Assembly: GCA_020543525.1 (NCBI GenBank)
Contig: JAHYIO010000023.1
Coordinates: 992,001-1,056,000, forward strand
DNA: 64,000 bases
Direction of reading: 5' to 3'
Source: Coriolopsis trogii
Lineage: Eukaryota; Basidiomycota; Agaricomycetes; Polyporales; Polyporaceae
Below the pieces are notes generated by a model that had not been told where the DNA came from, ran no database searches, and saw nothing but the letters and a program-made list of their open reading frames with translations. The translations under genes and the position numbers were made by a program. Below are positions 30,461 to 52,276 of the stretch, one piece after another. The stretch's first letter is position 1, and every line of letters starts with the position of its first letter.

Positions 30461-31156
30461 CGTTCACTGTGTACCCTAGCGCGATGGATTCGTCAGTATG
30501 ATGAAATGCAGAAGTTGTCAGAAGGACATACAGGATCGGTGACGGACCAAGCTAGTCTCCCGTAGGCAGACGATACGGACCTCTTGACTGACGGTAAGTA
30601 GGACCAAGCAGTGGGCTGACCAGCGAATCTGATAGACGCTCATATAACATTCTCCGGGCGAAGCGGGCCTGCCAGCCGCGAGCTCCGAAACAACCTTCCT
30701 CTCATCTAGCGATGGAGTACTCGACAGGAACAAAGAGCTCACATCTCGACTTCATATTTTATCACGCGTTTTGCTCGTCATGAGCTCAGGTAATAAGAGA
30801 ATTGTCATATTGTGCTCTTTTGAGCTCCAGTGCTCCAGAAAGCATCCAGGTGTTGGTGGGACAAGCTTGGAATGGCGCAAATAGTCTCCTCGCCGCCTCC
30901 TTGACGATGATATAATAAGGTCACTCCTGCTATGTTGGAAGGAATGGTGTCGAGTATTCACATATCGTCACTATATCGTACTCTGGTCAATCTGCTGAGT
31001 TTGTGTTCAATACGAAAGTCGCCGTCCGCCCACAGTTTTCGTGTTTCTTGCAACGAGTGTTCACCAAGCCGACAGCCTGCAAAGAATATAGCGTCAAAAA
31101 TAGCCTACCATGCTATACCAATCGACACCTGCCAGTAGAAGAAGTTCGTTCTCAGA
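30461..31156. other. Intergenic region between F-box copy 2 and P450-A
   Basis: Only short frames without similarity. No tRNA or repeat was recognised. It should hold the F-box promoter and the P450-A terminator. Confidence 0.45.
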
Positions 31157-32993
31157 CTAAAGATCACGTCCTGAGACCACCGATGAGGCATTGATGAGGT
31201 CTTGTGCAACCTTGGAACGGGGTTCAATCATGCAACGGCAGTCTTCAAGATGCCTGACAAAATGGACAATCAATCGCGTTAAGCAAGGCCAGTGCTGATA
31301 CTTACGACAGGAATCCATCTGTCATTTGAGGCTTGATCTCGACTTCTTTCCCTGTCACGTCCACAGGAAGGCTAATCTTGAAGACATGGAGCACACAGGC
31401 AACATTCAGGAACATTGACGTATCAGCGAAGTATCGCCCGGGGCAAATCCTGGCCGCCCAATGTGAGCCCGCGCAGAAACCCGGACCATGCATGACATCA
31501 TCTTTTGTACCTCCTGCCGGAGCCGAACGCTAAACTGAAAGGGTCACGAACGTTACGGTCAAGCTTGCCATCTCGGATGAAGCGTTCGGGATTGAACTCG
31601 TCCGGGTTCTTGTACTCTGTCAGATCGTGCATACAAGCCCTGCAGAGCACGTAAGTGAGCAAGCATGAACGAGGGCGGACTGATGTGGAAATTGGACCGA
31701 CCATATGTTAGGGACTAGCACGGTTCCTGCCGGTATGAAATAGCCTTGAATGACATCGTCCTCGACAGTGCGATGTGGGATGCTCAGCGGAGTCACGTTG
31801 AACCACCGCAGTGACTCTTTGACGATAGCGTTCACGTATACCAGAGCGTCGCGGTCCTCGAAGTCTGGGAGACGTTCTGGCCCGACGACTGCATCCAGCT
31901 TGGCCTGAGCCTTCTTCTGCACTTCGGGATAGAGTGCCATGGCCAGGAAGGTCGCTTGCAGGGTGGAGAACGTCTGTGTGCATGGGCATATGAGGACCTT
32001 TCCAAGTTCTACGCCATAAAGTAAGAAGCTCACCGTATCCGCACCAGCTAGTTACACCATTAATCACCTCAGCGGTCAGCATTGAATAAGCCATTGCGTA
32101 CCTTCGAATACAACAGCGACCACATCTTTCACGAGCTCTTCTATTGCCTGCGCATCTCCGCTGTTCTCTCTGGACAGCCGAACCATCAGCGAATCAGCTA
32201 TGGAGATGGGTCCCGGCATGACATGCGACGTCTGGTTGGCACCAGTTAATAACACGACGGGGACGCACGGAGAAAGTCTCACGTATGCGGTATTTCGCCG
32301 CTCGAAGGGCATCTCTCGGACTCTGTTACTTGCACGGCACCATTTTGCGAACAGCGTCTGGAACCCTGCTCCGGGCATCCATGTGGGGACGTACTTGAGA
32401 AACGGGAGGTAGTCAACCAGGAACCTCCCCGGAACGAACGCTTGGCCCGCTCCTTCAAGCGCCTCCGCAACCACCTGTATCAGCTCATTCTCTTCGTCGT
32501 CTACGTCAATTCCGTATCCGATTTTGAGTATGGTTGCTGCAAAAGCACTACGAGTAACGACGTCAGTAACGCGGGACACCATGAGCAAGTATCGCAGCAA
32601 TAGCTCACAATCGTATGTGCTGTTTGAAATGTTCCGGCTTCTTCATGAGCTTTTGTAGGAATGTGTGAGCAACAGCGATTTGAACGGGTCGATACTTCTC
32701 AATCGCCCCTGGGTGGAAATACTGCCATATTGCCCGCCGGTAGCTCCTCCATCGGGGGCCGTACGGTATCAGCCCAAGAATCCAGTCGTTCCCGGTGCTA
32801 GAACCAACCTTCAGTCCAACCTGTCGACAGTGGGCATGAGATAGATTTGACTCGGAGACGCACAGTTTGGTCACTGGTGTCGCCATTCTATCGGAAGTGT
32901 TCGCTGTGCGTGTTTCTAGGAACTCGGATATTGCTGCAGCGCTGCCAAGGACGACTTGTCTCTGACCGAGGATGTTGAAATGAATGACATCTC
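31157..32993 (-). CDS. Cytochrome P450-A, exons 2 to end (gene split by transposon)
   Basis: This is the main body of a P450 monooxygenase whose first exon lies 16 kb away at 49218-49440. It starts inside the protein with GDVIHFNILGQRQVVLGSAA. Landmarks are PYGPRWRSYRRAIWQYFHPG, the 14-nt exon AGADT (32034-32047), TFSTLQATFLAMALYPEVQK, KESLRWF (ExxR), PERFIRDGKLD, FGSGRR-ICPGRYFAD (haem Cys, across an intron), and the last exon RHLEDCRCMIEPRS ending GRDL, TAG at 31157. No stop or frameshift is seen. Best relatives by eye are P450-B (50200-52276) and the pseudogene at 13.3 kb; such Agaricomycete P450s are often annotated as O-methylsterigmatocystin-oxidoreductase-like. Substrate unknown. The upstream insertion in intron 1 probably abolishes expression. 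Confidence 0.85.
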
Positions 32994-33082
32994 CTGTGCC
33001 AGTCTGATCAGATATATGTGGTCGTCTCCAGCGCGGGTGCCAGGGGTAGGGGTTCGAAGAACGATGTACACCAGGGACTTCA

Positions 33083-33131
33083 CTTAGTTTGTTAATCAAG
33101 TCGTATGGAATAATGTAAAATAGCGATTAAA
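33083..33131 (+). repeat. Left terminal inverted repeat of the KDZ element
   Basis: Starts CTTAGTTTGTTAATCAAG and ends GATTAAA. It pairs with the reverse complement of 49147-49195 at 39 of 49 positions without gaps. Confidence 0.8.
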
Positions 33132-33475
33132 TTCACCATTAATTCTACTACTTCATGTGCGATCCCAATGTTCAATGAAGTGATCAAGGGGCTGATTAAA
33201 TTATGGTTGGCATAACCGCAAGACGATCACGGTGGTCTACCACTCTATGCATTTAATCATATGATTAACCGAATGATCAACTCAGAATGCATGAAGGCTC
33301 AGTATACAGTATCATGTTGATTACACAGACGAGTGAGGATAAACAGGACGATTAACTCATGATGATTACCCTATAGATGAGACTTCAAACATGCAGTAGT
33401 AAACAGGGGGATTACGCTGGCGATTATGTGAAGATAAATGCAAAGATTAATGGGATGCAGAATGAGGCACAGCCA

Positions 33476-36400
33476 TCAACCGACACGAAGCTCCTTCATA
33501 ATCTCCTCAAAGACCGAGACATCATCTACCAGCTGCACGAGGTATGGGCGGATGGACTGGATGATGGTCAGCATTAATACAATGATAAGAACATCGAGTG
33601 ATACGTACACGAGTGTGGTCAAGCTTCTCGCTATCGACATCCTCACGTCGGACGGAGTCGTATGCAGTCATCATCTCTTCCTGTTTGGCCTTCCACATGT
33701 CTGCAGTCTTGTACGCATACGCCCGCCTACCACGACATAAGCCCACAGTATCTGCAGCATGCTTCCATACCTCATAAAAGTGCTGGGCACCATCCCGGAA
33801 CCGCCTCATCTCTGCGCAGCACAGAGACACGGCCTCATCGTCTCTGCGCTTCTTTTCCAATGCGCGTTGCCACTGTACGAAGTCAACTGTGTGCGGATCA
33901 GCAGACTGACGGGCAGTGGCAGAGACATACATACGTTGTGATGCCTGGGCAGTGCGGGTCTTCGCAGTGGTGCTGACGTCGGAGTGGAATATGTGCCATA
34001 TCCATGATCCTGTGAGCTTGCTATCTCCGAGACTGTGAGGTACCGCCATGTTAGCAATAGTCAAGTCCACGTCGGGGTCAATGCGTCGGAGTTGTTTGCT
34101 CGGAGAGGCATCAGACGCACCGTCGTAGTCCGGAGCGCGAAGGAGAACGATTCGATCAAAGTTGTTGTTGTATCGGGATGCCAGGAGTCTCGCAAGCTCC
34201 GCAGCATCCTGGACGTCTTGCTCGGCATTCTTGTTGGCCAGATGTCCACGCGCGTGTTTGCGCTTAGTATCTATATGAGCCGCGCGATGCTGAATGGCAA
34301 GTCGGACTTGCTCGAGCTGATCAAATGCCATGCCAATGCGGAGGGCCAGCTCAAACTCGGCCAGGTATTCAATGCAAAACTCTTCACACTCCTCTCGATC
34401 GAAATCTCATGGGAGCGCTAGCATATGGTCGTCTTCTCTCAGGTCAAGTTCCTCCTCGAGATCGTGTTCCGCCAAGTCTGGAAGAGTGGCCGCAAGCTCT
34501 TCCATGTACTTGCGCTGTGATTCACGCCATCGCGCCAACTTCTTTTCGAAGGCTTCCTGGGTGACGCGAGGATACAGGTGACAGTCGAGGGCGTCTTTCT
34601 GCTGCCTCTTCTGATCCTGCACGTAGCGCAGGTGAATGCTGAACAACATGTCAGTTTACGATAAGCACGGAAGCATCAGGCAAGAACCTACAGCTCGCGC
34701 TCAAGATCAAGTCCAGTCTTGATAAATTGCGCCGCACGCGAACGGTTCTGTGCGTGCGCGCGATCGCGATTGACGTTCCCAGCTGCTTTGGCGGCTTTGA
34801 CGAGCTCTTCCAAGGCCTTCTCTGCACTGGGCACTGCAGTTCGGTTAACGCAAGTGGGTCAAAGCAGGGTCTGTCACATACAATCTGTGCGTTCTAGAAG
34901 TAATGGACTGCTCTCCTATGCAGCCTCCTTCTCTCGGAACGTCAATGGTGTTGGCGCGTTGGTATCCACATGTATCTTCGCCCATTGTGCAACTGTTGCG
35001 GCACCTGCCCTTGCAGTCAGGCTGGCAAAATAGCGGGTGCTCCCGCGCTGCGCCTTGTGCAGTTTGGGGAGTTTGGTACTCAATCTTTTGGCTGGAGAAG
35101 GTATTTATCAGTACATGCATGCATGGTAGCGGTATTGCCGAGCTGAACGTACGTGTGGTCTCGAGCTTCATCCAGTTCCAGTGGTTGAATATACTTGTGA
35201 GAGCATCATGACGAGCTCCAGCTGTCATCTCCCTTGTGACCTTTCCAACTGTATTGAACTCGCTCCATGGGGTCTCGACACCCTCTCCGTAGGTATCCCC
35301 GAAGCCCTCAGCATATGCGAGCGAGTATACGAGCTGACACTGCTCCTTGTGGGCATGGATATGTAGGGCGGGTAGTAGCATCTTGAGGTTCTCCACGATG
35401 GGCAGCAGCTCAGGAAAGCGCTCAAGGAAGCGTTCAGAGAGCCATCGTATGATGTGACATACCACATCGTACGTCCAACCATGTTCAAGTAGAAGCTCAG
35501 TACCTCGTAGCTCTCCAGCCATCACGAAGTCAGAGTGTAATCTCCTACAGATACTCATATGAGACATTCATGCAAAAATGGTACGGAAGACTCACGTTTT
35601 GTTCGTAAGAAGATCGACGGTTGCTCCTGAACGAAACACGATGTGGTTACACACCACAGACAGAACGCCGCTGACATCCATGAATCTAAACTTCCCACGA
35701 CGCTGTATGCGTGTTGCTTTGAAGTCGTTACAGAGGTGTTCCTAGAGCAGACTGTGATTAGTCTCAACGCGTATGAGGTACACAAGTCCAGCCACTCACG
35801 CCTTCTTCCCCTTCCTGGCCTTGACCGTCTCCCCTCCGCTTTGATATTGCCTTCCCATACTTGTTATACTGCTTGCCCAGGTACGGTTTGATCTCGGAAT
35901 CCGGAACGAAGAAATTGAAGAACTCGCTTAGCGCAACATCGTCGGGGTCGTCGTCTTTGCTCTTCTTGTACAGGCTATAGTTGCCATCCTCTGACAAGAT
36001 GATACGAAACAAATATCTGCAATAGATAACCAGTCAATTATTGGTCTCATGATGCGGGACGGACAAGTACCTGAGGTGTTGAGGGACATCTCTCCAACCA
36101 CGGGGCAGGTTGACGCCAGGCCATGGGCAGGTGATACATGGAACCGTCCTGTCCTTCGGGTTCCGTTGAGGCAGCACAATTGCATGCGCATGTCCTGCAC
36201 GCTTCCGCGACAGAAGATCGCAATATACGCATGCTGTCGTCATAAGCTCCCGATAGCGATCCTAAGAACATATGGTTAGAACAGGTTGTCTCATACGATG
36301 ACGGCGGAGCCTTACCTTGACGGACGTAGGGGATCGACCATTCGTCTTCTTCACCAGCCGACTCATGTAATCCTGTGCGCTCTGCTTGGAGATGTTGAAG

Positions 36401-37315
36401 GCAAGGAGATAGTCGTCGAGCAGATCGATAGTGAAAGCAGTCTCGATGCGGTTCAGCGTCGCTGGGAAGTAACCAGCACGCACGAGTTGTTTGCGTTTCT
36501 CTAACCCTCCACCACACTGACAGTACCGGATTTTGCATTCGTGTACGCCGTTCTCCTGGACGATGACAAACGAGACAGGAGGAGATGTTTGGAATGCATT
36601 GGGACATGGGTCACCACGGTGGCCAAGGTGGATGACGAGACCAAGCTGAGACAAGTCTCGACGCTTGAAATAATAGCCGTTCCAGACACCCACCCAGTGA
36701 AGCGGCTGGTTCGTATGTAGCTTGACCACGCACGGCTCACAGAGTGGCTTTGCTTGGCTGCAGTCCGCACATCTGACCGTTGCTGGGCTCTTGCAGTCTT
36801 TCCGCGAGCACATGCCAGGGATGGCGTCATCGTGATCCCGCCAGAGGAGATCGTCGAGAATAGAATCGAGGTGTGGCTCGAATTGTTTCATGCGCGTGGA
36901 GTTCGTAGCCTTCGTGGGCTACAGGAAGACAGAAAATGAGTACGCTCTTCAAAGCCAAGACTGCAACGCGTACCTTGTATCTTGCGTTTGTACACTCCTC
37001 AGTTGAGGGTGCACACACAGGATCTGATGAGCAAGAGGTTGTCGAAGTTGTGGTGGGAGGTGTCGGCTCAGGCACGCTCTCTTCGGCGTCCTCGGGGATG
37101 ACTGGTGAGATATTCTCGTTGCCCGGAGTGTCGTCGCCGGTTGTAGAACGGTTGAATAGTGTGGGTTGTGGTTCTATATAGTTGAGGGTTCACTCGCGAA
37201 GAGTCAAAGTACCAGACGTGCTGACATCGTAAATCGAGTTGCTGCCGGTGGGATGAGGAACATGAGCAGTGAAGGAGACATTCTCCACCCTCTTGGCCCG
37301 TGGACGCCGTAACAT
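33476..37315 (-). CDS. KDZ (Kyakuja-Dileera-Zisupton) transposase with CxC2 zinc cluster
   Basis: A multi-exon gene. The ATG at 37315 begins MLRRPRAKRVENVSFTAHVP; after two small introns the frame continues STRMKQFEPHLDSILDDLLW. A cysteine cluster (CSRKDCKSPATVRCADC, then CEPC) matches the CxC2-type domain that precedes KDZ transposases. DRYRELM and CYCDLLSRKR follow. The catalytic part has YDVVCHIIRWLSERF, HIHAHKEQCQLVYSLAYAEG and GEGVETPWSEFNTVGKVTRE, the family motifs that supply an acidic residue, a histidine pair and the GExxExxW glutamate. The C-terminal region is a helical Lys/Arg/Glu-rich domain, ending EEIMKELRVG with TGA at 33476. No internal stop is needed once introns are removed, so it may be functional. 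In basidiomycetes this family is known to travel with cargo genes. Confidence 0.88.
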
Positions 37316-37534
37316 GAGAGGCAGAAACGCGTATGTTGCGGTCGAGAGAGTCCATGCTGAAGTCTAGGATGTATGTTGAGAAGGGTCAAAGGCACTCGCT
37401 GTTGTCAGTGTGGCCCGGAACAAAACATAGTACGGTCAATGCAAAGTGGCGGCTGCCATACCCGTCATAGAGTCAAAGCAATTCGGTCAAAGCGTATCAT
37501 ACGTAAGTACATGGTTTTACAGTATACAGCAAGT

Positions 37535-39621
37535 CTACTCTGGATCCGAGTCCGAGTCCGAGTCCGAGTGCATAGTATTGGACTGGCGGACAGGCAAAGC
37601 ATGCGGGATAATGGGTGCGCAGCCAGAGTACTCGAAGAAAGCATTGACATAGAACGAGAACATCTCTCCCTCACGTGTCGTCATATCGTCCGTCGGGAGG
37701 TCTGTCGTAAAGCGTTGCGAGTGTATAGTAGTCGGACACCGAGGCCATCGACTGAGAACTCGGCGAAATGCTTCCAAGTACGATACACGGCGGTGTGGTA
37801 GGTCGGCATACAGACCAACACCGCTAGACGGTATCTCCGTGAGGCTATATAGTACTCGCTGAGGGAAGACTTGAGCGAGCAGCTCGTCTCGTTGCTCTTC
37901 TCCATAGGAACCCTGCCGGTTTGGAACAAGAAGACGGTCGAGGGCGAGCAGCTCGTATCGGAACCCCAGGTTATACATCTCCCAGATAATAGCCAGCACA
38001 AGCTCTGGAATGACTTGAGAGACGGAACGCCCAAACCAATGCGCAGGGGAGGTGGGAGTGTCGTCAAAGTGTGCGGCCTCGAAGATGCTACCAAATACTG
38101 CCTGTATCATTTGCCAACGCTGACCGTTGGCGGTGGCTGTATTGATATCACGACCAGTAGGTCCATAGAGGACGTCTCGCCACCACTGCGTAGGTACACG
38201 AGTAACCCGAATATCAGGGACGCGGAGGAGGTACAGCCAGGGAGTTCGCAGTTGTAACCAGGTCATGATATATCGATCGCGGCGATCAACGGTATTGGGA
38301 CGGAGGAGGAGAGCGGGTTCAGGGATCCAATAGCCCCATATGTCTGGGTTCGGACGCGCAGGTTGGGAAAGATTTACAGATGACAACGCCTGTCGCCAGG
38401 CGGGCAACTTGGCCGGCATCCATTCGTGCTGGAACTCCTCGAACTTGTTCACCCCGCGTACTTGACTACGATGAGCTTGAGGATCTGCAGCATACGTTAG
38501 GTTATGTTCGAAATGAATGACCATTAGTGAGCGTACATGGCTGATGAGAAGAACGCGCCCCATGCGCACTTGGTCGCGATGTGCTTCCCTGGCGTCCGCT
38601 GGTACTGGTTGTCTGTTGTGCGGGGCCAGCAGTAGTCAAGGCACCCGCGACCAGTCTTGCTTTGTACTCCTTCTGCGATACAGGGGCACCATACCCTCCG
38701 TCGATATCGACGGCAAGGAGAGGTGCCCGCGATATGTCCAGGTAGAAGTGTCCGCCTCTGGCTGTGTAGGTGAGATGCCGCCCTGCCAACCCTCGGTATA
38801 GCGGCTCCGTGTCGTCCGTCACAGGAGTGGTACAGATATTGATCGGTTCAGTCAGAAGCACGACCTTGCAAACATGAGTGTCGGCGAGGATAGACACATC
38901 GCTGCGTATGAACCAAACGGGGATCCCGGCAGCAAATAAACTCTGCACCGTCCCGGGGTCAGTGGTAAATGCTCCCATCAAATTTGAGGCAAGCGAGGAC
39001 GGTTCGTTCTGGTGGACCTTGGCCATCTTGTCGTGGTAGTCGATGAAGGCGAGACACATGAGAGAATAGCGTTGAGTTTCATGAACTTGAAGGATAGCAT
39101 CGCGGTAGGTGGACGGGAAGTAGCGCAGGCGATCGCAAGCATGGCGCATGGCAGTATGGAGCCATTGAATGCGACGGTCGGGGAAGGAAGGATGGGTCGA
39201 GACAATGACAGACACCGAGTCTACTACTTTGCTGAGGGGAAGAAACACGTCTGCCTTGAACAAGCCCAGGCACTTGAAGACGGATCCTTGAATGATTTCG
39301 AAAGCCGCTTCTGCAGGCGTGAACCAGAGTGGCGCAAGAGGATCATCGGCTGCTACACGGCGGGGGATGGCGCACAGGTAGTTGTATTCTGGAGTGAAGA
39401 CCTGCGGCCATTGGACTGGGTCCACCAGGCCATACCTATAGTCGGCACGAAGAAAGACCTTGACCAATCCCACCGGGGGTTCTGGAACAAAGTCCATGTT
39501 GGGAGACGTGACGACGTACTTCACATCGTTCGTACTTGCGCCTACCAAGGCGTCCTGCCAGGACAAAGAAGCTGTAATTTGTTAGAAGCGTTGAATGATA
39601 CATGGAAGCTTTTCTCACCAT
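37535..39621 (-). CDS. KDZ-element gene B, unknown function
   Basis: About 670 residues in three coding exons. The ATG (39619-39621) is the last codon of the first exon and abuts the donor GTGAGA, so the protein starts M-DALVGASTNDVKYVV. Further segments are YRYGLVDPVQWPQVFTPEYN, PLWFTPAEAAFEIIQGSVFK and VWFIRSDVSILADTHVCKVV. The exon 2 donor is GTACGC near 38548 and its acceptor is CTGCAG near 38496. The last exon has EFQHEWMPAKLPAWRQAL, GYWIPEPALLLRPNTVDRRD and RVTRVPTQWWRDVLYGPTGR, and ends in DSDSDSDSDPE with the stop at 37535. Trp/Pro-rich conserved-looking blocks suggest a real folded protein; I recognise no domain. Transcribed in the same direction as the transposase, 0.2 kb upstream of it. 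Confidence 0.72.
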
Positions 39622-39707
39622 TTGCGTTCCCCTGCACGCTTAGTAGGGACATGTTCCAATTTTCGCGTCGTGCGACGGTCGTTCGAATGGTACGTTGGGA
39701 GATGATG

Positions 39708-39765
39708 GTCGAAGAACACAAGTTCAACGACTGCACGCAGCCAGAGGACCTCAAAGTCTTTCTGG
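39708..39765 (-). repeat. Inverted 58-bp repeat, left copy
   Basis: Contains the motif AAAGACTTTGAGGTCC on the minus strand and matches the reverse complement of 40311-40368 at 56 of 58 positions. It lies just upstream of the start of gene B, in the zone from which the two arms of the transposon diverge. Confidence 0.85.
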
Positions 39766-39875
39766 ACAGCGCGCTGGGAAAGGGGGAAGACGTGTGTTGG
39801 TGGGAGGGTCGATATTGGAGAGTGTCGGGAGAGTCGAGGGGTAGGGAGGGTCGATAGCGGGTTGTCAATAGCTGT

Positions 39876-39925
39876 GAGAGTCGAGAGGGGAGAGAGTCGA
39901 GAGGGGAGAGAGTCGAGAGGGGAGA
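39876..39925. repeat. Short tandem repeat, GAGTCGAGAGGGGAGAG units
   Basis: About three near-identical 17-bp units (GAGTCGAGAGGGGAGAG), inside a purine-rich region (39790-40060) with many variants of GAGAGTCGAG. It sits between the two 58-bp inverted copies, at the divergence point of the element. Confidence 0.75.
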
Positions 39926-40310
39926 CAGCCGAGAAACGATAGCGTTGAGAGTGGAAAGTGTCGAGAGAGTCGGGCGTTGAGAGTAACAATTGTCGGGTCG
40001 AGTGTCAAGAGTGTCGAGAAGGGGCCTTGAGGCGAGTGATGGCGGCAAGAGAGAGAGCGGAGGATGCCAGTGTTGGACTCAGCAGACAGTTACGTGAGCC
40101 GATGTCAGCGCCTTTGCGGAGACCTTCGGAGTCATCATTTTTTCGGCCGTCGACTCTACCCCGCCCTCTGTGCTCCCCGTCGGCCCGCCGTTTCCCGACC
40201 TCCCCGACCTCGTTGCTCGTCGTTCATTTTGCACTTCAACTTCAACCTCAACGCTTCGCCTCACCTCTCCGTCTTTGCTCGCCTCTCAGTAATGCCCTCC
40301 TGGGCACCCG

Positions 40311-40368
40311 CCAGAAAGACTTTGAGGTCCTCTGGCGGTGTGCAGTCGTTGAACTTGTGTTCTTCGAC
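40311..40368 (+). repeat. Inverted 58-bp repeat, right copy
   Basis: Starts CCAGAAAGACTTTGAGGTCC and is the mirror of 39708-39765. Shorter copies of the core appear at about 42981-43015 and 43738-43775, the latter some 190 nt upstream of the start of gene C. Confidence 0.85.
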
Positions 40369-41465
40369 TTTCGACTTCGCTTTCTCAGATGCCATGCTGT
40401 ACATCCCTACCAACCTTGTAAGTGTTTTGGGCCTGTGCCAAGTGGCCATCGCTGTTGTGAATGTGAGTATTATCCCAAAGTCGGCGTTGTGTGTTTACTT
40501 ATGCTCCATGATGCAGCTGTCCAGTTTCGTACTCGTTGGTCATCATCACGCCCACGACTCGGTTAGAGGACGCAACCTCCCATGGTCCTAATACGAAGTG
40601 CAGTTCGCGCGCACATCCTCAGCGAAGCTCCACCAGATTCACGGGTTCACCTCACCCACATGTTCGTGCACATTCTCAAATTCCGACCTAGCTTCCACCT
40701 CACTCGTGCACCGCACATGTCAGTCCTCAACACGAACGTCTGGCACCTCCTCCAGGGCACAAAGTGCTTGTTTCAAGACCACCGCCACTTCACGCGACTT
40801 CCCCACGTTCGCGCATCTCGCCAATCAGTCCCTGCGCTGCCACATGCAGCTCCAGCCTTGAGTTCACTCCAGGAACGGCGCATCCGGGGTACCCTATCAT
40901 CAGAACGCGCTTTCAATGGCGGCGTCGACGCGATAGTTGTAGATGAGAATGCCTGCCAAATCCCCATGATGCCCGGCAGCGAGTGAAGTGGCCACGCGCC
41001 GACCCTTGTTTGCAGTCTGGAGTCAGCGATACGCGCAAGATTGAGAAGCACGCGAAGCATGGTCGTCGATGTCTCGCGACGGTGACGCCTGTCTGCTGGG
41101 AGCAATCACCTTGACGTATGTGTTCGGTCATTCCATGAACCCAAAAACACCTCATTCGCATGTTTTCCGTTTCCTCGCCCGCAAGGAAGTGCAGTTGCGC
41201 CTTCTGCCCACTCGTGACTTTCAACAATGGTTAGGACCCAAGACCCCCATGTGGAGGTAGTTGCCATGGACGACCGCCAGTACAGTCAATACCAGTGCCG
41301 CGTGTCGCCCGAGTGTCACCCTTGTCATTGTTCCTTTGTCCGCGTCAAGTGGCGTCGACAGCGCCCTTTAGCCTGGGCCTGGTCTGGAGGTATAACACGC
41401 GCCATGAACGTCTCACAATGGTTCTACTTTGTGCCTCTCCTCCGACCACACCGTCTGTTACTGCA

Positions 41466-42015
41466 ATGCCACGCCCACGCAATACGAATCCTCGTCGTGG
41501 ACGAACGTCAGCGCCCACAGCCCGCACTGTTCGACGTCGCGACTTCCGTGAAGTTGCTCATGAATTTGCCCAGCAACAACCTCCTCTCGAAGCGCTCTGT
41601 TTGCACCCAAAACGAAAGTATCTCATGTACTTGTCTGGCTCAGAAGATGACGGCCGTCTCTATGGGCAGGTACGCCTCTAACCATGTGGTCGAGCACTAT
41701 TCACCGCTAACTACTTCACCCCAGTGTCGCCGCCGCCAATGCCCATACCATGGTGTTACTCAATATCTTACTGCACCCCTCTCGTATGCTTAGCTCGTCG
41801 ATCTCAACCTCAAACGCCCTTTCCGGCTGGCAAAGTCGCCCCGTTGGCTCGACACTTATCGCGAGGAAGTCAAACAGCTCTTGCAAAAGCATGGCTACGA
41901 TCACAACTCAGCTGATGTCACCGACTATATTCTCTCTGGGTTCCCCGACATTGAGGGCGATCTCGAGGACACCGCTGAGGACGAGGCAGCCCAGCTGGCC
42001 GAGGAAGCCGAATAA
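41466..42015 (+). CDS. KDZ-element gene E (partial model), unknown function
   Basis: Two coding-like blocks on the plus strand. One (41466-41669) starts MPRPRNTNPRRGRTSAPTAR and ends YLMYLSGSEDDGRLYGQ before a GTACGC donor. The other (41794-42015) reads LVDLNLKRPFRLAKSPRWLD, then YREEVKQLLQKHGYDHNSAD and TDYILSGFPDIEG, and ends in an acidic tail (EDEAAQLAEEAE) with TAA. A short middle exon (VAAANAHTMVLLNI) lies between, but I could not join all three in one frame with standard splice sites. The gene may therefore be damaged or have extra exons upstream (40380-41460). No domain is recognised. Confidence 0.38.
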
Positions 42016-43929
42016 TCCGAGGAACCCGAGGACCCTTCAGAACAAGAGTAGAGCTGAGCAAGTTTCGGTACCTGTCTGTTATCCTGATGGTCAGTCTGTC
42101 ACTTGGCTGTGTAGATCATATTCACTTACTTCTGGCTACAGTATAGAACGCTATGCACCTTGGTTATATTGCACAGTCTTTCATGTAGTAATTTGACAAG
42201 GCGGTTCGGGAGCTCGTATCTTGAGCGTCTACATTTCCTGATACGGCAATGGCAATACCTGTTAGGACATGAAAGGGATGTGTGCGATGAGGAGACGAGT
42301 GCACCAAGTATGTGTGTGTCAAAGACGTGGAGGTTGAATACACGTTAGACTGTTATGTGCACGACATGAAGATGAGCTGCGAGGATGAGCAAACCGGCTC
42401 GGATAGGTTCAGTCAAAAACACGATTGATCCGCCTTCAGAATTGGTACAGATCAAATTTCAGATTGATCGGCTTGCATTGTCTGTAAGAAGTCGAGCTGA
42501 ACCAAACCGCGAGGTGCGATCCATCTATGGCAGTTGCTGGATGATTTTCCAGCGACGTGGCCGACATGTTTGAGAGTGCTCTCATCGTCCCCAAGGACGA
42601 CAACGCGTGCGCACCATCCTCCTTCTCCTCCTTTGCCCTGTCGCGTCATATGTTTGTACTTTCCTCCCTGCCGCGTAAAGTTTTGGCCCTCACCATGCCC
42701 GCTCTGTCCTCACCAAATTCGCACCCAACGATTCGCACATACTCGGGGGCCTCCATATCCCTCGACGGTGATACGCCCTGGAGATTCACTTCCAGTCCTC
42801 GTCCAACCCCCGCTCGTCCTTCTCTCACACCGGGCACGTTGCCCTCGACTGTCTCGCCATCATTGAGACCGCCTCCAAGAGGCCCGATGACATGGCAACA
42901 TCGTGCAACATGCTAACATCCCTTTTCCGCCTACAGACTCTGACACACACAATGCGAACTTGGAGTTCGCATAGACATCCCCGCAAGACTTTGAGGTCCG
43001 CAGGGATCATATCTTACCTTCGGACGGCTGCACGCACCTCCCTGTCGCATAGAGTTTCCACCCTTGGCCCTGGTATCCCGGCCCCATCCTCGCCAGACAT
43101 GGATCACAGGCTGCACCCAACAGTTCCCATATCCTTCATGGGCGAGTGAGCCCTCGACGATGCTCCGCCCTCGAGACCTCCTTCGTCGCAATCCAGTCCG
43201 GCTGAGCGCACTCCTACTTCCTTCAACCCTGGCACATTGCCCTCCACAAACTTGCCTGGCCCGATAAGTAGAACCAGGAGACTGATGTGACGGTCTTAGA
43301 ATATATCTCGTACGTTGTTGTCTCATCTCTCGCAGGATGTCACAATGAGCTAACGAACCAAATAGCCTCGACTCCCACTCACGCCAACCACGTTTTGCCC
43401 TCGACTCGTTACTAGCATGGCCGACGCCGACGGCGAACCCCTCGACTGGGGCAACAACGACGACGAACAGCAGCCCCCAACCAACTCCTACGCCGAACTC
43501 TCGCCACAACAGCTGACAGGCGGATACGTGAATCCATCAGGAGACGCAGAGGACGCAGTGTCTCTTGGGGACGATAATGACGACGAGCATGAGTACTTTG
43601 CTACCAGCACTACCGAGCAGGCATCTGCATGTGGGGCACAATGTCAAGCAAAGCCGACGTTCAACGCGTCGCACTCACATTCCTCCGATCCTTATCACGG
43701 CTCCGTCGAACTTGTTGTACGCGTGCATAGACATCTGCGAAAGACTTTGAGGTCCGCCAGGATCGTATGCCATTGCCAGGCCATGACAGTGCCAAGGCCG
43801 TACAGGACAAAGCACGGTTGGAGCACGGCCGAGTGCCCGTGGCCCTTGCCAACACGGGCCACTGCTCCTCTGCCAGAGCCTTATAGCCCGATTCGTGGTC
43901 ACTCCTCCGACACCGTTCTCATCTTCACC
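42016..43929 (+). other. Internal region of the KDZ element with degenerate frames
   Basis: Frames at 42557-42916 and 43417-43929 are Pro/Ser- or Asp/Glu-rich (MADADGEPLDWGNNDDEQQ in the second). The second is open into gene C but contains a copy of the AAAGACTTTGAGGTCC repeat, so it is more likely leader or decayed duplicate than protein. A second repeat copy is at about 42981. Confidence 0.45.
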
Positions 43930-45356
43930 ATGTCCCCACCCGCTGACTCTCGCGTCAAGGATATCGTGGACGCGCGCACTGTCCGATCTTACCTGTTGGG
44001 CGGTGTGACCACCTGCGTCAAGGGTTACGACCATTACTTCACGATCAGCTATGGCGCCACGAACTGGAAATCAGTGGGGCTGGCATTGACGATAGTACGT
44101 TCACCTCCTGTGTCATTAGGTGCATTTGGAACTGACGAGATCTTAGTGTAAGGGTCCGTTGGACAATAGGTGCCATGAGCATCTGAAGCCCTTGCGCCGT
44201 CAGATCTCAGACGAAACTCGTGCCGATATGTTACGGGCCATCAAGCAATTGGACCCTCCGCCGTACAATAATCCGACATACCGTGCAGACGCCATATTCT
44301 GGCTCCAAGAGCTACGGGACGTCGTGGAGACGTCTAGCGCTCCAACCGGCTTCTCGTCAAGCCAACGGGTTGTGCGTAGCGAAGAGCCAGCTTCTTCGCC
44401 CTCCGCCAGCTGTACTCCTGCTCGCGCTGTGACCCGTACCCTAGGCAAGAGCACTCACGCAGATATGGTGTCGTCGGGGAAGGGGAAACGGGGCCGGCCT
44501 AGCTTGCTCAAGTGTACCGTCACTGCATACATTTACTTGAAGGTACGTTCATTCACCACGTAGCCTCGTACACTGACCAAACTGCATTTAGAACAGCCAA
44601 GAGCCCTTAGAGCTGGAAGGAGACGGGACCTGCCGCGATCCCATAGTCGAGTTTTCTTTCAACCAAGATGCCTTCAACGAGGTCCTCGATGACATTCGTC
44701 TCAGCGAAGGTCGCGCCACCCCATACAAGTTCCTCATATGGTTCCCCCTGATCGACGACTGGGCTGACCATCCGCACGGATCAGCGCTGAATTGGCTCGC
44801 TCCTGGTCAATGTGTTTTGTACCGCAAGCTCGAGGTCAGCGACATGCCCCAGGTCAATCACTACAAGTGGCTCACCCTCCAGCATATCCCCCGCCTGTCG
44901 ACCACCCTTGCGATGCTTTCGTCTATCTTAGCCTTTGCTGCCACTGGCGAATTGGCAGCCGACTCCAACACTTCTGCCTCCATCCATTCCAAGAGTGTTA
45001 TCCCGAGTCAGCAGAAGCGCGGTCGTTCTCCCGAAACATCGGTCGCTGCAGGCAAGAAGCGGGTACTTGCCGAAGGAGTTTCTGTCGATGTCGCAGGCTC
45101 CGACGTCGTCGTTGTCGTCGATACTCAGGATGCGGCGGCTAGAGGGAATATGGAGGCTGACGGCATGCGAGCGGCCGTGCCAGGGTCTACTGTTGCCACT
45201 GTGGTTGCTGGTGTCATCGACTTGACCGGGGATGATGACAACCATGCTGTCCCGGCCACAACATGCATCACTTCTGTCTCCCGCAAGCGCAAAGCAAAGC
45301 GCACACAGAACGGTCGACCGAGCACGGCGGAGATCATTGATTTGATGAGCGAATAA
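43930..45356 (+). CDS. KDZ-element gene C, unknown function
   Basis: Three exons, 43930-44094, 44147-44542 and 44592-45356, encode 441 residues. The start (CACCATGTC) gives MSPPADSRVKDIVDARTVRS. A region with TICKGPLDNRCHEHLKPLRR has two cysteines and a histidine that could bind metal. Later blocks are NQDAFNEVLDDIRLSEGRAT and PYKFLIWFPLIDDWADHPHG. The C-terminal third is low-complexity with basic patches (KRKAKRTQ) and two repeats of the pattern VIDLTGDDD / IIDLMSE, which resembles a SUMO-interacting motif (V/I-x-D-L-T followed by acids). That is an inference only. No known family is recognised. The promoter side holds the shared repeat motif. Confidence 0.7.
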
Positions 45357-46196
45357 ACTACCCGTAGTTTGATGTTACAAGGCTTCGAATGTATCCTCAA
45401 TCGACGTGACGTATGCATACGTACCTGTTATGCGACACGATCCTTTTGCCCTCGCGGTTCATCGCTTGCTGCGCTCTTTTCAGAGTCCGGACCGTAACGC
45501 CTACAGAGACTACGGCAATGGTTTAATGCCCTCGCGCGACGCTGGAGATCATGTGCGGACAACCTTCAACCTCATGGACGACGGGACGGCATCGACCCCG
45601 TCAAAGAATTGTATCATTCCTACCAACTCGGACGCGCTTGAACGCAATCTTTAGCTCGATATTGCGCCCCGAAGTCACGTCATCCTCGCCACAACGTTCA
45701 ACATTCCAGGCCTCCCGTACATCAGCTCATCGTGCTGTGATCAGCCCACCAGTTGACCCCCACGCGCCGTCACCTTTTCCCATTCGCGTCGCCTTCCCGA
45801 TTGAATTCTGCTACTCCCTCGCGGCGTCCAGATCTGCCCACCGACGAGGCATATTCTATGAGCCCCGTTCGTGCCGAGAGTCCACACTGCTCGCTCGGTT
45901 CCGCGTGGCTCAAGCGTGGCCCAAGTCTTTGTCGATGGCGATCTATTGGGCAACGGGTCTTGTCTGGTGTGCCTGACTCAGGCCATCCTTTTTGTCAGTC
46001 CCATTTTGCAGTGCAACAAGACGTCAACTGATCTTTTTTGGCAGGCTCTTGCCGGGTGGCACCAGGTCGTAGCTTTGATTAATGACACGCCTTCAGTTTT
46101 GTGGGTCGAAGCGTAGTCATAGCTAGCTGACGACGTTTTGGCCCCTTGCCCTCTCTCCTCTCACCCATTCTTGACCTCAGCCACCACCATTCCCCC
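45357..46196 (+). other. Region between element genes C and D
   Basis: Short overlapping frames of up to 141 codons, none coherent. It probably contains the 3' end of gene C and the promoter and leader of gene D. No copy of the AAAGACTTTGAGG motif was found here. Confidence 0.4.
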
Positions 46197-48823
46197 ATGT
46201 CCAAACAACCAAGTCTTGCCATGTCCTCGACTCCAGTCGACATGACTCTCGAGGCTGTCCCATCAGCGACGCCCGCTACCCCACGTCACCCAAAGAAGAA
46301 GAAACAGTCTGCCGAGCCACGGGTTCCCGGCGTTGACGACTCAACGGATGAGGAGGCGAATGCACTTACCGATAGACGGAAACGCGACCACACGAAGGAT
46401 CCCAAGAAGAAGAATCAGCCTGAGCCCAAGAAGACCACATCCGACGCCGAGAAGGGTGAAGACTTGGACGATGACGCAAGTGGAACCAAGACCACACGCC
46501 GTAACAAGCGCTTTCCGTGGCAGAAGTACAAGAAGGCCCTCGATTATCTGTGGACCCGCTTGGACGAGTACTTGACCTGCGACAACATGAGCCGAGTAAC
46601 AATGAGGGAGCAGGTCACCGGACACGTTCTCAAACACTGCGGACCTTTCAACAAGATGAAGGACGAAGCGGTAAAGATAGTGAGTTTGGGGCTTATGGGT
46701 GGATAAATGTCGACGATACTGATACTCTATGCAGGCCATCAGCAACTGGTTCCACAATCGTGGACAGGATCACCGCAGGGGGGTCGGTGCAGTAGCTCAG
46801 CGCGCTGCCGCCATTCGCGCATCTGCCCCCACTATCGATATCGACTTCGAAACCCCTGTCGATGTATCTCCTCTTCTGAAAACATTCAAGGCACGCGCAC
46901 GCTCCGTGTCCGCGCTTTGGGCTGACGCGAATCCCGAGCGAGTGCAAGCCGCGCGCACTGATAACAGTATCGGCAACTGGCGCAAGACTGTTGCCAAACT
47001 CTTTGCAGCCCTGCCGGAGGACGAGCGCGAGGACTGGTTTGCAAAGGCGCGAGAGCTCAAAGCAGCAACCCAGAACGCTACGGATGATGAGATATGTTTC
47101 GAGTAAGTGTTAGATTGTTTACTGGTGGCTCGACGACACTGACAGCGTGATAGAAATCAGAAGGTATTCCCCCGGGTTCTCAGTGAACTCTTGTCTCAAT
47201 TTCCGGGATTCGGACCTGGTAGAGCGGGCAACATCATCATTGATGTGATGATTGGCATGCGCGACGCGCAGGACAGGATCAATATGCACGAGTGCGTGCA
47301 TTGCTCGATTCTGAACACCGCTCATTTGCTGACATGTCTCTTTTTAGTTTCAAGGTGGGTGCCGAGAGCGCACCTTCTCTCCAGACCTTTGAAGGCGGCC
47401 CTAGTGCCGAAGAAAGACGTCGGCGTGAGCGATACTATGCACAACTGCTTCGTATGTATATGCTTGCCGTGTTCGTCTTCGACGCAACTGACGGCAGATC
47501 ACGCAGCTCCCAACCCCGTCAAACGCGACTCTCGGCTTTTGTTCACGGACGATGGTGCTGCTCTTCTCCCACCTTGGGATAAGAACTGGAGCTGCGAGCA
47601 TGCAGCCTCTGTTTTGGATGCGTTCTTTGTCGCAATGTGGGGTAAGTGGATGTCCTGACCCCCTCGCTCAATATACACACCTGACATGATTGCAGGACAT
47701 ACAACAGGTGCTCACGCAATGTTGGACTGGGAGAAAATTGAGCAGGGTGCCGTTCCGGTTGTGAACGACTTCTGGCAGGGAAAGGGCTTCGGAAATCCTG
47801 CCAACATGGATATTCTTCAGCTCGTTACTCTCTACAGAGCTGTCTTGGCAGCGCAGGACTCTAATGATCCTTTCCGGTTCACCACCACACCTGCGAATCC
47901 GCCGTCCGACTCTGCCAAATGGTCAGGACAAGGCCCGCCAACTCCGAGCAGGACGCGAATTGTTCACGTCCCATTAACACCTAGTCGACTTCAAGCTACA
48001 CCTAAGCGCCCAGCTCTTCCCCGCATCCCAGAGAGCTCGGATGAGGACAGCGATGCGGACGGCGATCAGAACGAGGACTCACACACACATAAGTCATCGA
48101 CGGCAAGGGAATCACCAACTGCCAGCATCTCCCCTGTGGCCAGTGCGCCGAATGCGGAGCCTGCCATCAGCGCGTCCGCACCTACGGCTACCCCCTTTGA
48201 TTCCACAGCCCTTGCCCCCGAGTCTTCTGTTAACAGTGCGCAGGGACACGGGAGCTCAGCCATTGAGGGCGGTGAGGCTCTACTGGCTGCAGCGGCGCTA
48301 GACCCAACAAGCGCGGACGAGGGCGAGCAGGTGTCTGCAGCTGCGTGCGAGGAGATGGGCGCTTCACCGGAGGAGAACGCAGCACCTGTGACGGAGGATG
48401 CTGCGCATATGTCTCAGGTGCGCAGTGCTGTCAGTGCGGCTGCGACTCCCGTGCAGGTGTCTGTGGATGCACACGAGGAGATGGGGACTTCAGCTGAAGG
48501 GAACGCGACACCCATGATAGAGGACGCTGCACCTCAAGAGCAGGTCCTTCGTCGAGGGACTCGCACCCGCAATGCGCCTACACCGCGCGATGAACTTCTC
48601 CCAGCAGCGAGCAAGAAGCGGACCCGAGCATCAGGTCCGGAAGAGAACGAAGGCTTGCGGCAAGCTAAAAAGTCGTACGTGCATTGTCGAAGAGCATATC
48701 ATCCCTTACTAACGTATACTATACAGGAAGACAGCAGGGGCCCAGGCAGGGCGTACTACACGCGGAGCAGCTGCGAAGGCTGAAGTGAAGGGCAGCAAGG
48801 GTAAGAGCGGCCGCGCTAGATAA
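46197..48823 (+). CDS. KDZ-element gene D, unknown function
   Basis: A multi-exon gene starting at ATG 46197 (MSKQPSLAMSSTPVDM). The first exon ends at 46679 (donor GTGAGT) and the second starts at 46735. A lysine-rich N-terminus (HPKKKKQ, TDRRKRD) could be a nuclear signal. The central part looks folded: KRFPWQKYKKALDYLWTRLD, AISNWFHNRGQDHRRGVG, NWRKTVAKLFAALPEDERED, FPRVLSELLSQFPGFGPGRA and WSCEHAASVLDAFFVAMWG. The C-terminal 300 residues are Ser/Pro/Ala/Glu-rich with two imperfect repeats around EEMGASPEENAAPVTEDAA and EEMGTSAEGNATPMIEDAA. The end is basic (KGSKGKSGRAR, TAA 48821-48823). No known family is recognised. Its position next to the right terminal repeat indicates cargo. Confidence 0.68.
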
Positions 48824-49146
48824 TATGTGACTCCACCATCCTGTATACTTCGCGTATGTTGATGAGACGTTAATCGGACGATGATTCTCATTTGAACTCT
48901 TCGTGATCCACCTTAATCGACTGCTAATCTCTCTGATTAACTCACTCGGCATATTCTGCAAGCGCGCTGCTCAGATCTGGGACCGTGATTATGCCGTTAA
49001 ACTGTCAGATTATACCTTGTTTATCACATCCTCCAAGTTGATCATGAGATTAGCGTAGGTCTTCATAGACCAGTCTCCAGTGTTACAGAGACGGATCAGT
49101 AGATTAGCTCGTTGATTAAATCTCTAATGCTCTACATAATGGCAGG

Positions 49147-49195
49147 TTTAATCTCCAATTTACATTAAGCCATGCGATTTGATTAACATTTTAAG
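49147..49195 (-). repeat. Right terminal inverted repeat of the KDZ element
   Basis: Read inward on the minus strand it starts CTTAAAATGTTAATCAAA and ends GATTAAA, mirroring the left repeat. The AT-rich subterminal region (48840-49146) carries further GATTA motifs. Confidence 0.8.
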
Positions 49196-49217
49196 ATATA
49201 CTAGTGTGTACACGCAC

Positions 49218-49440
49218 CATATATGTCGCAAAGGTCTCGAAATCCGTACCACGGCTTCACCTTAGGTATGTTGTGTACGTTTCCAATGACGGGGAGTTGC
49301 GGAGGGCCTGGTGGCAGAGGATGTCCACCAGTGCGCGACTTCCACGCCGAACTCGAGCGTTGAGCGATAATGAGGAAGAGAGAGAAAGCGACCAATGCCA
49401 AAGCTACAAGGTTATCCATGGAGGACTGTGCGGAATTCAT
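49218..49440 (-). CDS. Cytochrome P450-A, exon 1 (orphaned by transposon)
   Basis: The start at 49440 (MNSAQSSMDN; alternative ATG at 49418) leads into a membrane anchor (NLVALALVAFSLFLIIA), a basic stretch and the PPGPPQLPVIGN hinge, then KPWYGFRDLCDIYG. The exon ends at 49218 after the first base of a Gly codon (TAT G), followed by the donor GTGCGT. The matching acceptor is at 32994, where the next exon begins GA GAT GTC, so the join gives YGDVIHFN in frame as in P450-B. The element lies 12 nt into this intron. Confidence 0.83.
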
Positions 49441-50199
49441 GCTGGTATCCGATGACGTGCTAGTGTCGACCCCGAAGATGTGGCCCGTGCCTCGTGTGTG
49501 CTGGAGCACTGTCTCGATAGGGCTGTCGAAACTCTCTATGTGTCTCGGCCCGGGTACTTCCTGAAGAAGATTTGGCTCGGGCGGCGTCTTGAGAGGCCAT
49601 TCCAGAGAAGCACCATGGGCGCTGGTGGCTTGAACGCCTCTCAATGACTTCCGCACTGTCGCCCTGAAGTTGCCTCTTAAACCCCACATATTTGAAAACA
49701 GGCGGGTGAGCGAGCTCTTACCTTGCGATAACCACAGCTGACTTTGCATTCGTTGCATTTCTGAGAGGGTTTCGCATGGAAAAAAGGCATATTCGAGTCA
49801 ACGTGACTTTGACTGTACAGAATGCCGATCATGTTGACTCCAAGTCGCTTGATCAGGTAGGTCACAGCCCTCTTGATGTACTTGCATGATGTCGTAGCGT
49901 ATGCTTCACCCCTCGGGATAAGCCATGCGATCCTTGCATGCGTACTCCAGAATGTCAAAGTTTGAGAGGATCGACATGGTCTGAGTTCGGAGGCAAAACA
50001 GCAGCCGCGTGGGCGCTCCCGGCGAACCGACCAGACCCGGGCCGGGGCGGTTCGGTGCTATAGCGTACTGTTATGCTCTTTGTTCCTCCTCAAAGCCTCA
50101 ATATAATCAATGTGTCGACATAACTTTCCCCATTGTAATTTAACACATTCAGTTTAGGCTTCAACATGGTATGCATCACATCGCTCGGTACAAGTACTA

Positions 50200-52276
50200 T
50201 CAACACGCGGAAGCGTTGATCAAGTCTTCCGCGTCCTTAGAGCGGGGCACAATTGTGCATCGACAGTCATCAAGATACCTGGGGGTAGGAGTCAACGTCA
50301 CGATTTCCTCATACTATCCTGAACGAACTTACGACAAGAACCCGTCGGTCATCTGCGGTTCGATCCTAACCTCTTCACCCTTCTGGTTCAATGGGAGCCC
50401 AATCTGGAATACGTGCAGGACACAAGCAACATTCAGGAAGAGCGAGATATCGGCAAAGTGTCGCCCCGGGCATATTCTAGCCGATTCAGTCGCTCATAAG
50501 CATACACACGTCAATGTATAATGTATGAACGGTGCTCCTTCACGTACCGCCTGCCTGAGCCGAACACGAAGTCAGTCGGGTTGCAGACGTCGCCATCCAG
50601 CTTTCCATCTTTGATGAAGCGTTCAGGTCGAAACTGGTCGGGCGCTTCGTATACTGCGGGATCGTGCATGGAAGCCCTTGGATGCCATTCAATATACACG
50701 AAAATCATAACAACTGGCAAAAGCACACACCAGGTGTTGGCAATCAAGACTGTTTTCGCAGGTATGAAGTAGCCCTGGACAATATCGTCCTTGATGGTGC
50801 GGTGGGGGATGCCCAATGGGGTCACATTGAACCATCGCAAAGCCTCTTTCGTGAGCGCGTTCACGTAAACCAAGGCGTCGCGATCATCTAAGTCCGGGAG
50901 GCGGTTTGGGCCAACGACCGCGTCCAACTCCGCTTGAGCTTTCCTTTGCACGTCAGGGTACAAGGCCATGGCGACGAAGGTTGCCTGTAGCGTCGCAAAG
51001 GTCTGAGAGGGGACAAGATTAGCAATCCTCCACTTGTTACATGAGGTCATGCTCACTGTGTCGGAGCCAGCTGTCCATAGTATTGAGCATAATCGCATAA
51101 ATATAGTAGTTGTAAACGCTAACTACTCACCTTCGAATGTGACACCAATCACGTCTTGCACAAGTTCTTCTGCTATTTGGGTTTCCCTACCATCCGCTCC
51201 AGACACCTGTGACAAAATGTCATCGGCAATAGAGGTGGGGCCCGGCATGATTTTCGACGTCTAGGAATTGTCAGCGAACCACAAGATGGGGACACAGGGA
51301 TGGAAGCCCACAAAAGCAGTGTTTCGTTGGACGAAAGGCATCTTTCTCAACCTGTCGTTTGCATGCCACCACCTCGCGAACGACGTCTTGAACTCCGCTC
51401 CAGGAATCCATGCGGGGACATGTTCAAGTAAAGGGAGATAGTCAATAAGGAACCTACCCGGAACAAATGCCTGGCTCGCTGCTTCAAGGGCTTCGTCGAC
51501 CACCCGGATCAACTCGTTCTCTTCGTCTTCCACATCAATGCCGTAGCCAATCTTCAGTAAAGTCGCAGAGAATGAGCTGAAGGTCGCACAGTCAGTAAAT
51601 GAAAGGCAATACGGTGACGTTGGTCACCTCTAATACTCACAACCGTATGTGCTGCTTGAATTGCTCCGGCGACTGGAGCAGCTTGCGCAAAAATGTACGC
51701 ACAACGGCATGTTGGACTGGCCGATACCTGTCGATTGCGCCAGGATGGAAGTGTTGCCACATTGCTCGTCGATAGCTTCTCCACTTCGAGCCGTATGGCA
51801 GGAAACCCATATTCCACTCCAGCCCCATGCTATGGGATAGAGTCAGTGATGTGTAGTGTGAGAATGTGACTCGCATGCATAACGCACAGCTTAATCTTCG
51901 GAGTAATCAATCTGTCAGAGGTGTTCGCCGTTCCCTTCTCTAAGAATTCTCGGATGGCTACCGCGCTGCCTAGAACAACTTGGCTCTGACCACAGACGTT
52001 GAAGTGAACCACATCTCCTGCAACCACGGACCGTTACGCAAGTACAATCGCGGAGAAGGGTGCTCAGTACATACCGTACTTGCTACATAGGTCTCGGAAC
52101 CCAATCCAGGGCTTGATCTTGGGTATGTTGAGCAAATTCCCAATAACAGGGAGTTGTGGAGGACCCGGTGGCAGTGGACGTCCACAAGAGCGCGATCTCC
52201 ATTGTGCAGCCAAGCGCAGATAGAGTGCGAATGAGATCATGAACACTATCAGTGCAGGAAACACGAGGCTGGCCAT
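50200..52276 (-). CDS. Cytochrome P450-B
   Basis: A complete multi-exon P450 monooxygenase, haem-thiolate, anchored in the ER. The ATG at 52276 gives MASLVFPALIVFMISFALYL, then PLPPGPPQLPVIGN and GFRDLCSKYG. Later landmarks are PYGSKWRSYRRAMWQHFHPG, the 14-nt exon CTGGCTCCGACACA (51057-51070, AGSDT), TFATLQATFVAMALYPDVQ, KEALRWF (ExxR), RPERFIKDGKLD, FGSGRR plus ICPGRHFAD-type haem loop across an intron, and the last exon YLDDCRCTIVPRS ending NASAC, TGA at 50200. It is the closest paralogue of P450-A, in tandem and 0.8 kb from its first exon. The substrate is unknown. Confidence 0.88.

Follow-up and report, generated by a model that had tools for sequence, protein, structure and literature searches.

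A Kyakuja-like, probably immobile KDZ transposon carrying pieces of host genes in the first intron of a P450 gene of Coriolopsis trogii

A 16-kb block in the genome of the polypore Coriolopsis trogii is a genuine insertion, and very probably constitutes a Kyakuja-like transposon of the KDZ superfamily that lies in intron 1 of a P450 gene (P450-A), whose lineage captured pieces of at least four host genes and which is itself probably immobile. The window analysed is a stretch of 64,000 nucleotides (C20:992001-1056000), and searches extended to the genome assembly of 38.8 Mb in 39 contigs; the closest protein relatives named belong to the polypores Trametes, Polyporus and Lentinus. Feature coordinates are collected in Table 1. 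The insertion is upheld by its ends, the target-site duplication, the transposase that it contains and the short first introns of paralogous P450 genes. These features, together with the PF18758 and CxC2 domains of the transposase, bear out a preliminary description of this DNA that had placed a cargo-bearing KDZ transposon in the first P450 intron; its overall reading holds as far as the cargo-bearing element is concerned, while the captured host-gene pieces within the cargo had been overlooked.

Table 1. Coordinates of the element, its contents and its host gene (positions within the window)
Feature	Position	Strand	Basis or remarks
P450-A (host gene), exons 2-10	31101..32993	-	open until the last exon's stop codon; splice sites GT..AG
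Target-site duplication TGTACAC, left	33065..33071	+	exact 7-mer
KDZ element, 16,135 bp, 5'-CA...TG-3'	33072..49206		ends, 7-bp duplication, symmetric 18-nt core distance, subterminal motif
Left subterminal GATTAA region	33072..33571		hexamer enrichment
Left inverted-repeat core	33090..33131	+	35/42 columns identical to right core
KDZ transposase gene with introns, start uncertain	33522..37180	-	CxC2 36262-36918; KDZ domain about 34845-35863
Two-exon gene, polypore protein family without Pfam domain	37535..39581	-	intact, no stops
58-nt inverted-repeat arm with motif AAGACTTTGAGGTCC	39708..39765	-	
Partner 58-nt inverted-repeat arm	40311..40368	+	
Captured fragment of C4 gene	40633..41206	+	two pieces, 67% and 75%
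Nucleotide-sugar transporter gene (C3), captured 5' part, copy 1	42647..42858	+	72%
Same C3 gene, captured 5' part, copy 2	43026..43334	+	71%; enters the donor's apparent intron 1
Captured 5' part of C9 gene with weak WW match	43363..43687	+	89%
Apparent multi-exon frame, exons by eye	43930..45356	+	protein without Pfam match
Captured N-terminal part of Cdc20/Fizzy-type gene (C8)	45482..45887	+	78%, frame lost
Apparent multi-exon gene, weak HMG-box match	46197..48783	+	E=7.3e-5, below cut-off
Right subterminal GATTAA region	48707..49206		hexamer enrichment
Right inverted-repeat core	49147..49188	-	35/42 columns identical to left core
Target-site duplication TGTACAC, right	49207..49213	+	exact 7-mer
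P450-A exon 1	49218..49419, or from 49440 with upstream ATG	-	exon and splice-site reading
P450-B, uninserted proxy paralogue	50197..52276	-	57-nt intron 1

The boundaries of the element are defined by several concordant features. Across all pairs of ends in 33040-33104 and 49175-49239, the TGTACAC repeat is the longest exact direct repeat just outside the ends, and both ends lie 18 nt outside the shared core TGTTAATCAARTCGYATGG; an exact 7-mer with a symmetric offset within 30 nt occurred in 17 of 5000 random pairs. The preliminary description had proposed a duplication matching at 7 of 8 positions and a right end at 49205. The duplication is indeed present, as an exact 7-mer, and the right end is corrected to 49206, which makes the core distances symmetric; the 8-bp alternative was rejected, with its 7/8 match and uneven core distances of 18 and 17 nt, as were ends of the CACC type found in other KDZ elements, for which the longest scanned duplications fall elsewhere. 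The imperfect inverted repeats, previously counted as 39/49, are recovered here as 35 identical columns in an ungapped core of 42, and local alignment of the 300-bp ends scores 32, compared with maxima of 23 both in 300 shuffles and among 500 random pairs drawn from within the element. Moreover, the hexamer GATTAA, chosen out of all hexamers as the one most enriched in the subterminal 500 bp, occurs 13 times (both strands) in the two outer 500-bp stretches, where 0.07 would be expected from the interior. Searches for further copies, a check proposed with the preliminary description, found no perfect match to the 19-nt repeat core in the 38.8 Mb searched apart from those at the two ends of the element itself, an outcome that had been named beforehand as part of what would count against the element. 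A core pattern allowing up to 3 mismatches gave 17 matches across the whole genome and its reversed control gave 14, and thus no sign of other copies.

The host gene retains a complete structure on both sides of the element. Exon 1 (49218-49419) and exon 2 (32864-32993) of P450-A join in phase at GT..AG sites, as had been proposed, and the gene comprises ten open exons free of stops and of splice-site loss. Intron 1 measures 16,224 nt and the other eight introns 51-66 nt; recomputation confirmed that removal of the block, with one duplication kept, leaves an intron 1 of 82 nt. The same junction occurs in the intact neighbour P450-B, also as proposed, whose exons 1-9 equal those of P450-A in length, and a paralogue on contig C33 matches P450-A exons 1 and 2 in blocks separated by 48 bases, with an intron 1 of 55 nt counted by eye. 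The uninserted state was therefore judged from P450-B and the C33 paralogue as proxies within one genome. Nothing in the analysis dates the insertion, although the site had been described as datable. When private changes are compared between codon positions 1+2 and position 3, the ratio comes to 0.98 in P450-A and to 0.81 and 1.2 in the paralogues; by this measure, which is powerless against a recent loss of the gene, the codon-position pattern of P450-A is not relaxed relative to P450-B and the C33 paralogue.

The transposase is assigned to the KDZ superfamily by two domains, the KDZ domain itself (PF18758: E=1.9e-29, 103.4 bits, cut-off 26.6) and CxC2 (PF18803: E=6.7e-27, 94.2 bits, cut-off 27). 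Its reading, spliced by hand at GT..AG sites, is open from before CxC2 to past the KDZ domain, in agreement with two Trametes cingulata proteins, and six relatives were recovered at E<=0.001, the best being two T. cingulata proteins with 45 and 44% identity. Acidic residues align with those of the Trametes relatives and may include the catalytic D-D-E residues. Beyond the KDZ domain the alignment contains several stops, two of which were taken by eye as intronic; this leaves the C-terminal two-fifths with two in-frame stops, at positions occupied by residues in the relatives. None of the other KDZ loci compared in the genome exceeds about 33% identity to the C-terminal half of the KDZ domain. 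The two stops in the transposase, the diverged ends and the finding of one copy in the searches made suggest that the element has probably lost its mobility.

Genome DNA searches revealed that the cargo contains at least five diverged fragments (67-89% identity) from at least four genes on other contigs, each captured stretch matching one other place in the genome among the matches listed. Since 34501-39559 and 43001-43689 were searched solely inside a 17.3-kb query, for which 5 of 6 candidates were scored and the window's match to itself was absent from the list, the set of fragments is a lower bound; for 33072-34500 and 46700-49215 the same kind of search returned only those stretches themselves. 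Fifty shuffles of 39560-46200 produced no match to the 17 loci compared. The donors on C3 and C8 are recognizable as a nucleotide-sugar transporter (PF04142, E=4.9e-91) and a Cdc20/Fizzy WD40 protein (PF24807, E=2.3e-61), and the C9 donor has a WW match under the cut-off (E=0.0034). The C4 donor has no Pfam match, and the fragment is only 67-75% identical to it; its source could also be a different species or a paralogue. Of the five fragments, four correspond to 5' or N-terminal parts of their donors, and the C4 fragment to a later part. As read by eye, the second C3 copy continues beyond what looks like the splice site of donor exon 1, and one C4 piece takes in an apparent donor intron, which implies copying at the DNA level. 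In a three-way alignment of the C3 sequences, private changes number 30 in copy 1, 35 in copy 2 and 9 in the donor, as fits a donor that is a constrained host gene. At 9 sites the two copies agree with each other and differ from the donor; copy 1 agrees with the donor and differs from copy 2 at 35 sites, and copy 2 agrees with the donor and differs from copy 1 at 30, a pattern pointing to two captures or a very early duplication; a single late tandem duplication of the fragment was rejected on these counts. The C8 fragment has a stop in each of three frames, and the C9 fragment retains an open frame (dN 0.099, dS 0.156, over just 270 nt).

A plausible history can be outlined for the element. 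A KDZ-superfamily element would have inserted by cut-and-paste into P450 intron 1, duplicating 7 bp, with its transposase presumably binding the terminal repeats and the GATTAA clusters. The element lineage would have taken up pieces of at least four host genes through DNA-level copying, probably before the insertion into the P450 gene, and most likely during repair of excision gaps in which the template switched to unlinked genes. Fragment identities of 67-89% give no order of capture and insertion, and the fragments could have entered afterwards; no second copy of the element was found that would show their co-mobilisation.

Other KDZ elements in the same genome provide a background for this proposal. 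The KDZ model gave 36 genome matches representing 21 places, the window element included, and the ends of 6 of the 20 others were examined in about 20 kb around each. These six elements measure 9.4-11.1 kb, carry inverted repeats of 295-745 bp (best alignment) that open with CACCT, and have subterminal hexamers that differ from GATTAA and are weaker; their duplications, judged by eye, are 8 bp in five cases and an exact 7 bp at C20:1117k. The element at C20:1109648-1120788, with 745-bp inverted repeats 99.6% alike, carries 151 bp of C1 DNA at 84% identity, a match that sets in about 24 nt beyond what looks like the stop codon of an EF-1alpha gene. It also has four matches on C39 near the two KDZ places of that contig, three at C5:1278-1280 kb, and a 347-bp match of 68% to C3, where two ORFs have no Pfam match. 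In the C25 element no match to an identified host gene came up, the searches having covered about 7.5 kb of the C20 element and 7.2 kb of this one; it matches KDZ elements on C3, C7 and C36 and has a 185-bp, 70% match on C33. An identified host-gene piece is thus present in two of the three KDZ elements searched, a count that covers element DNA only. Six further KDZ places (three on C4, and C2:39 kb, C36:692 kb and C30:583 kb) have nearly equal match positions and scores, which suggests a multi-copy family, perhaps recently active.

Several alternative explanations of the block and its contents have to be weighed. A rearrangement or assembly join that split exon 1 from the rest of the gene, with no insertion at all, would agree with the lack of another copy of the ends and with an empty site seen via paralogues only; it is hardly credible given the exact 7-bp duplication, the symmetric ends, the subterminal motif on both sides and the transposase inside. 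For the cargo, it is conceivable, though unlikely, that the element landed and died, and that the fragments arrived later as break-repair filler in 16 kb of neutral DNA, with no relation to transposition. The single copy and the broken transposase favour such a sequence of events, and the fragment identities are silent on it; a second KDZ element, with another end type, also holds a host-gene piece, which argues weakly the other way, the comparison covering element DNA only. Quite improbable is the delivery of the fragments by a gene-capturing element, such as a Helitron, nested inside the KDZ element. Helitrons are known to capture genes in other organisms, and the fragments have a 58-nt inverted repeat and a repeated motif next to them, but the Helitron hallmarks are lacking: on neither strand of the element is CT[AG][AG]T preceded, within 25 nt, by a perfectly paired hairpin of at least 7 pairs (a CTRR-hairpin end), the element has a 7-bp duplication where Helitrons make none, and no helicase (RepHel) occurs among the 14 window ORFs scanned with Pfam. 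In addition, the 58-nt repeat is not flanked by any exact duplication of at least 7 bases, and AAGACTTTGAGGTCC is confined to the window element. Capture by the KDZ lineage itself remains the preferred reading.

The present state of the host gene is a separate matter. P450-A appears intact on paper, so that either the 16.2-kb intron would be spliced out or the gene would be silenced and not yet decayed. The chances seem about even that it makes no product now and that its intact frame reflects mere recency, as the size of intron 1 next to the remaining eight would suggest; against this stand ten exons free of lesions and a codon-position ratio lying between those of the two paralogues, the latter with the limit for recent loss given above. 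P450-A lends itself to testing directly whether a 16-kb intron can be spliced in a fungal gene that otherwise has introns of 51-66 nt. A broader and more tentative proposal, to which we give somewhat less than even credence, is that mushroom KDZ transposons are habitual scavengers in which excision-gap repair stitches in pieces of unlinked genes, mainly 5' parts, and which plant the resulting chimeras elsewhere, here in the intron of a still-working P450 gene. If KDZ elements do capture genes, the group would be a source of chimeric genes and transcripts in mushrooms.

The KDZ group was reportedly founded on a paper by Iyer et al. in 2014. KDZ elements are prominent in some mushroom genomes, such as that of Marasmius oreades (PMC8290104). 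Kyakuja of Agaricomycetes, as described for two Laccaria families in Kojima 2025 (PMC12730594), has 7-bp duplications and CA..TG ends, features of a KDZ-superfamily element that are also found in the window element. By the same source, the Laccaria families have no inverted repeats and carry a TET/JBP gene, whereas the window element has imperfect inverted repeats and no such gene among the 14 ORFs scanned with Pfam; because of these repeats it is called Kyakuja-like and not a member of Kyakuja. The Cryptococcus neoformans elements KDZ1-3 belong to the same superfamily and, as reported (PMC12810828), measure 9-11 kb, have experimentally shown mobility, 139-241-bp inverted repeats and 4-8-bp duplications, and encode a CxC1 domain in place of the CxC2 found here. 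Their long inverted repeats bring them closer to the six other KDZ elements of this genome than to the window element.

That DNA transposons capture gene fragments is well established for plants and has rarely been documented in fungi. Pack-MULEs belong to other superfamilies, usually lack a transposase and occur in many copies. According to Manning 2013 (PMC3538342), plant Pack-MULEs and transduplicating elements hold several host-gene fragments between transposon ends, as the window element likewise does, the latter keeping a broken KDZ transposase gene. The same paper presents a Pyrenophora hAT element with a histone H3-like gene as the first fungal DNA-element transduplication; it is likewise a fungal DNA transposon with a host-type gene, but from an ascomycete, with one expressed gene and 10 long and 16 short reference copies, in contrast to the fragments of four genes in one copy here. 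Helitrons of the basidiomycete Pleurotus ostreatus also carry extra genes, yet capture of host-gene fragments is reported absent there (PMC4289320). Among the titles and abstract openings listed from the literature searched, which took in few subscription papers, none pointed to fragments of host genes in KDZ elements.

The remaining cargo includes an intact gene at 37535-39581, whose protein shares 54% identity, at 97% coverage, with one from Polyporus arcularius and belongs to a family of at least 66 relatives, the best-sharing candidates having been scored and those named being mostly polypores. At E<=0.1 the Polyporus relative shows no Pfam domain, and its confidently predicted structure, used as a model of the family fold (pLDDT 84.4, pTM 0.85), gave neither a PDB nor a viral match at E<=0.001. 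Within the same genome, C5:74026 holds a weak relative (27%), with a KDZ match some 6 kb away at C5:80551; a further weak relative (24%) is on C1, for which no KDZ matches are listed. In the frame at 43930-45356, the component ORFs (43366-44151, 44147-44563 and 44592-45356) have no Pfam match, and its end has stretches resembling SUMO-interacting motifs and an AT-hook. For the hand-spliced model at 46197-48783, which may be wrong, no homologue came up at E<=0.001. Genome-wide, the 15-mer AAGACTTTGAGGTCC has four copies, every one within the element (39746-39760, 40316-40330, 42985-42999 and 43741-43755), and all four copies lie near captured fragments. Elsewhere in the window, an ORF at 28775-30241 has sub-threshold Pfam matches only, and an inverted duplication pairs 14848-16262 with 29041-30460 at 72% identity over 1.45 kb.
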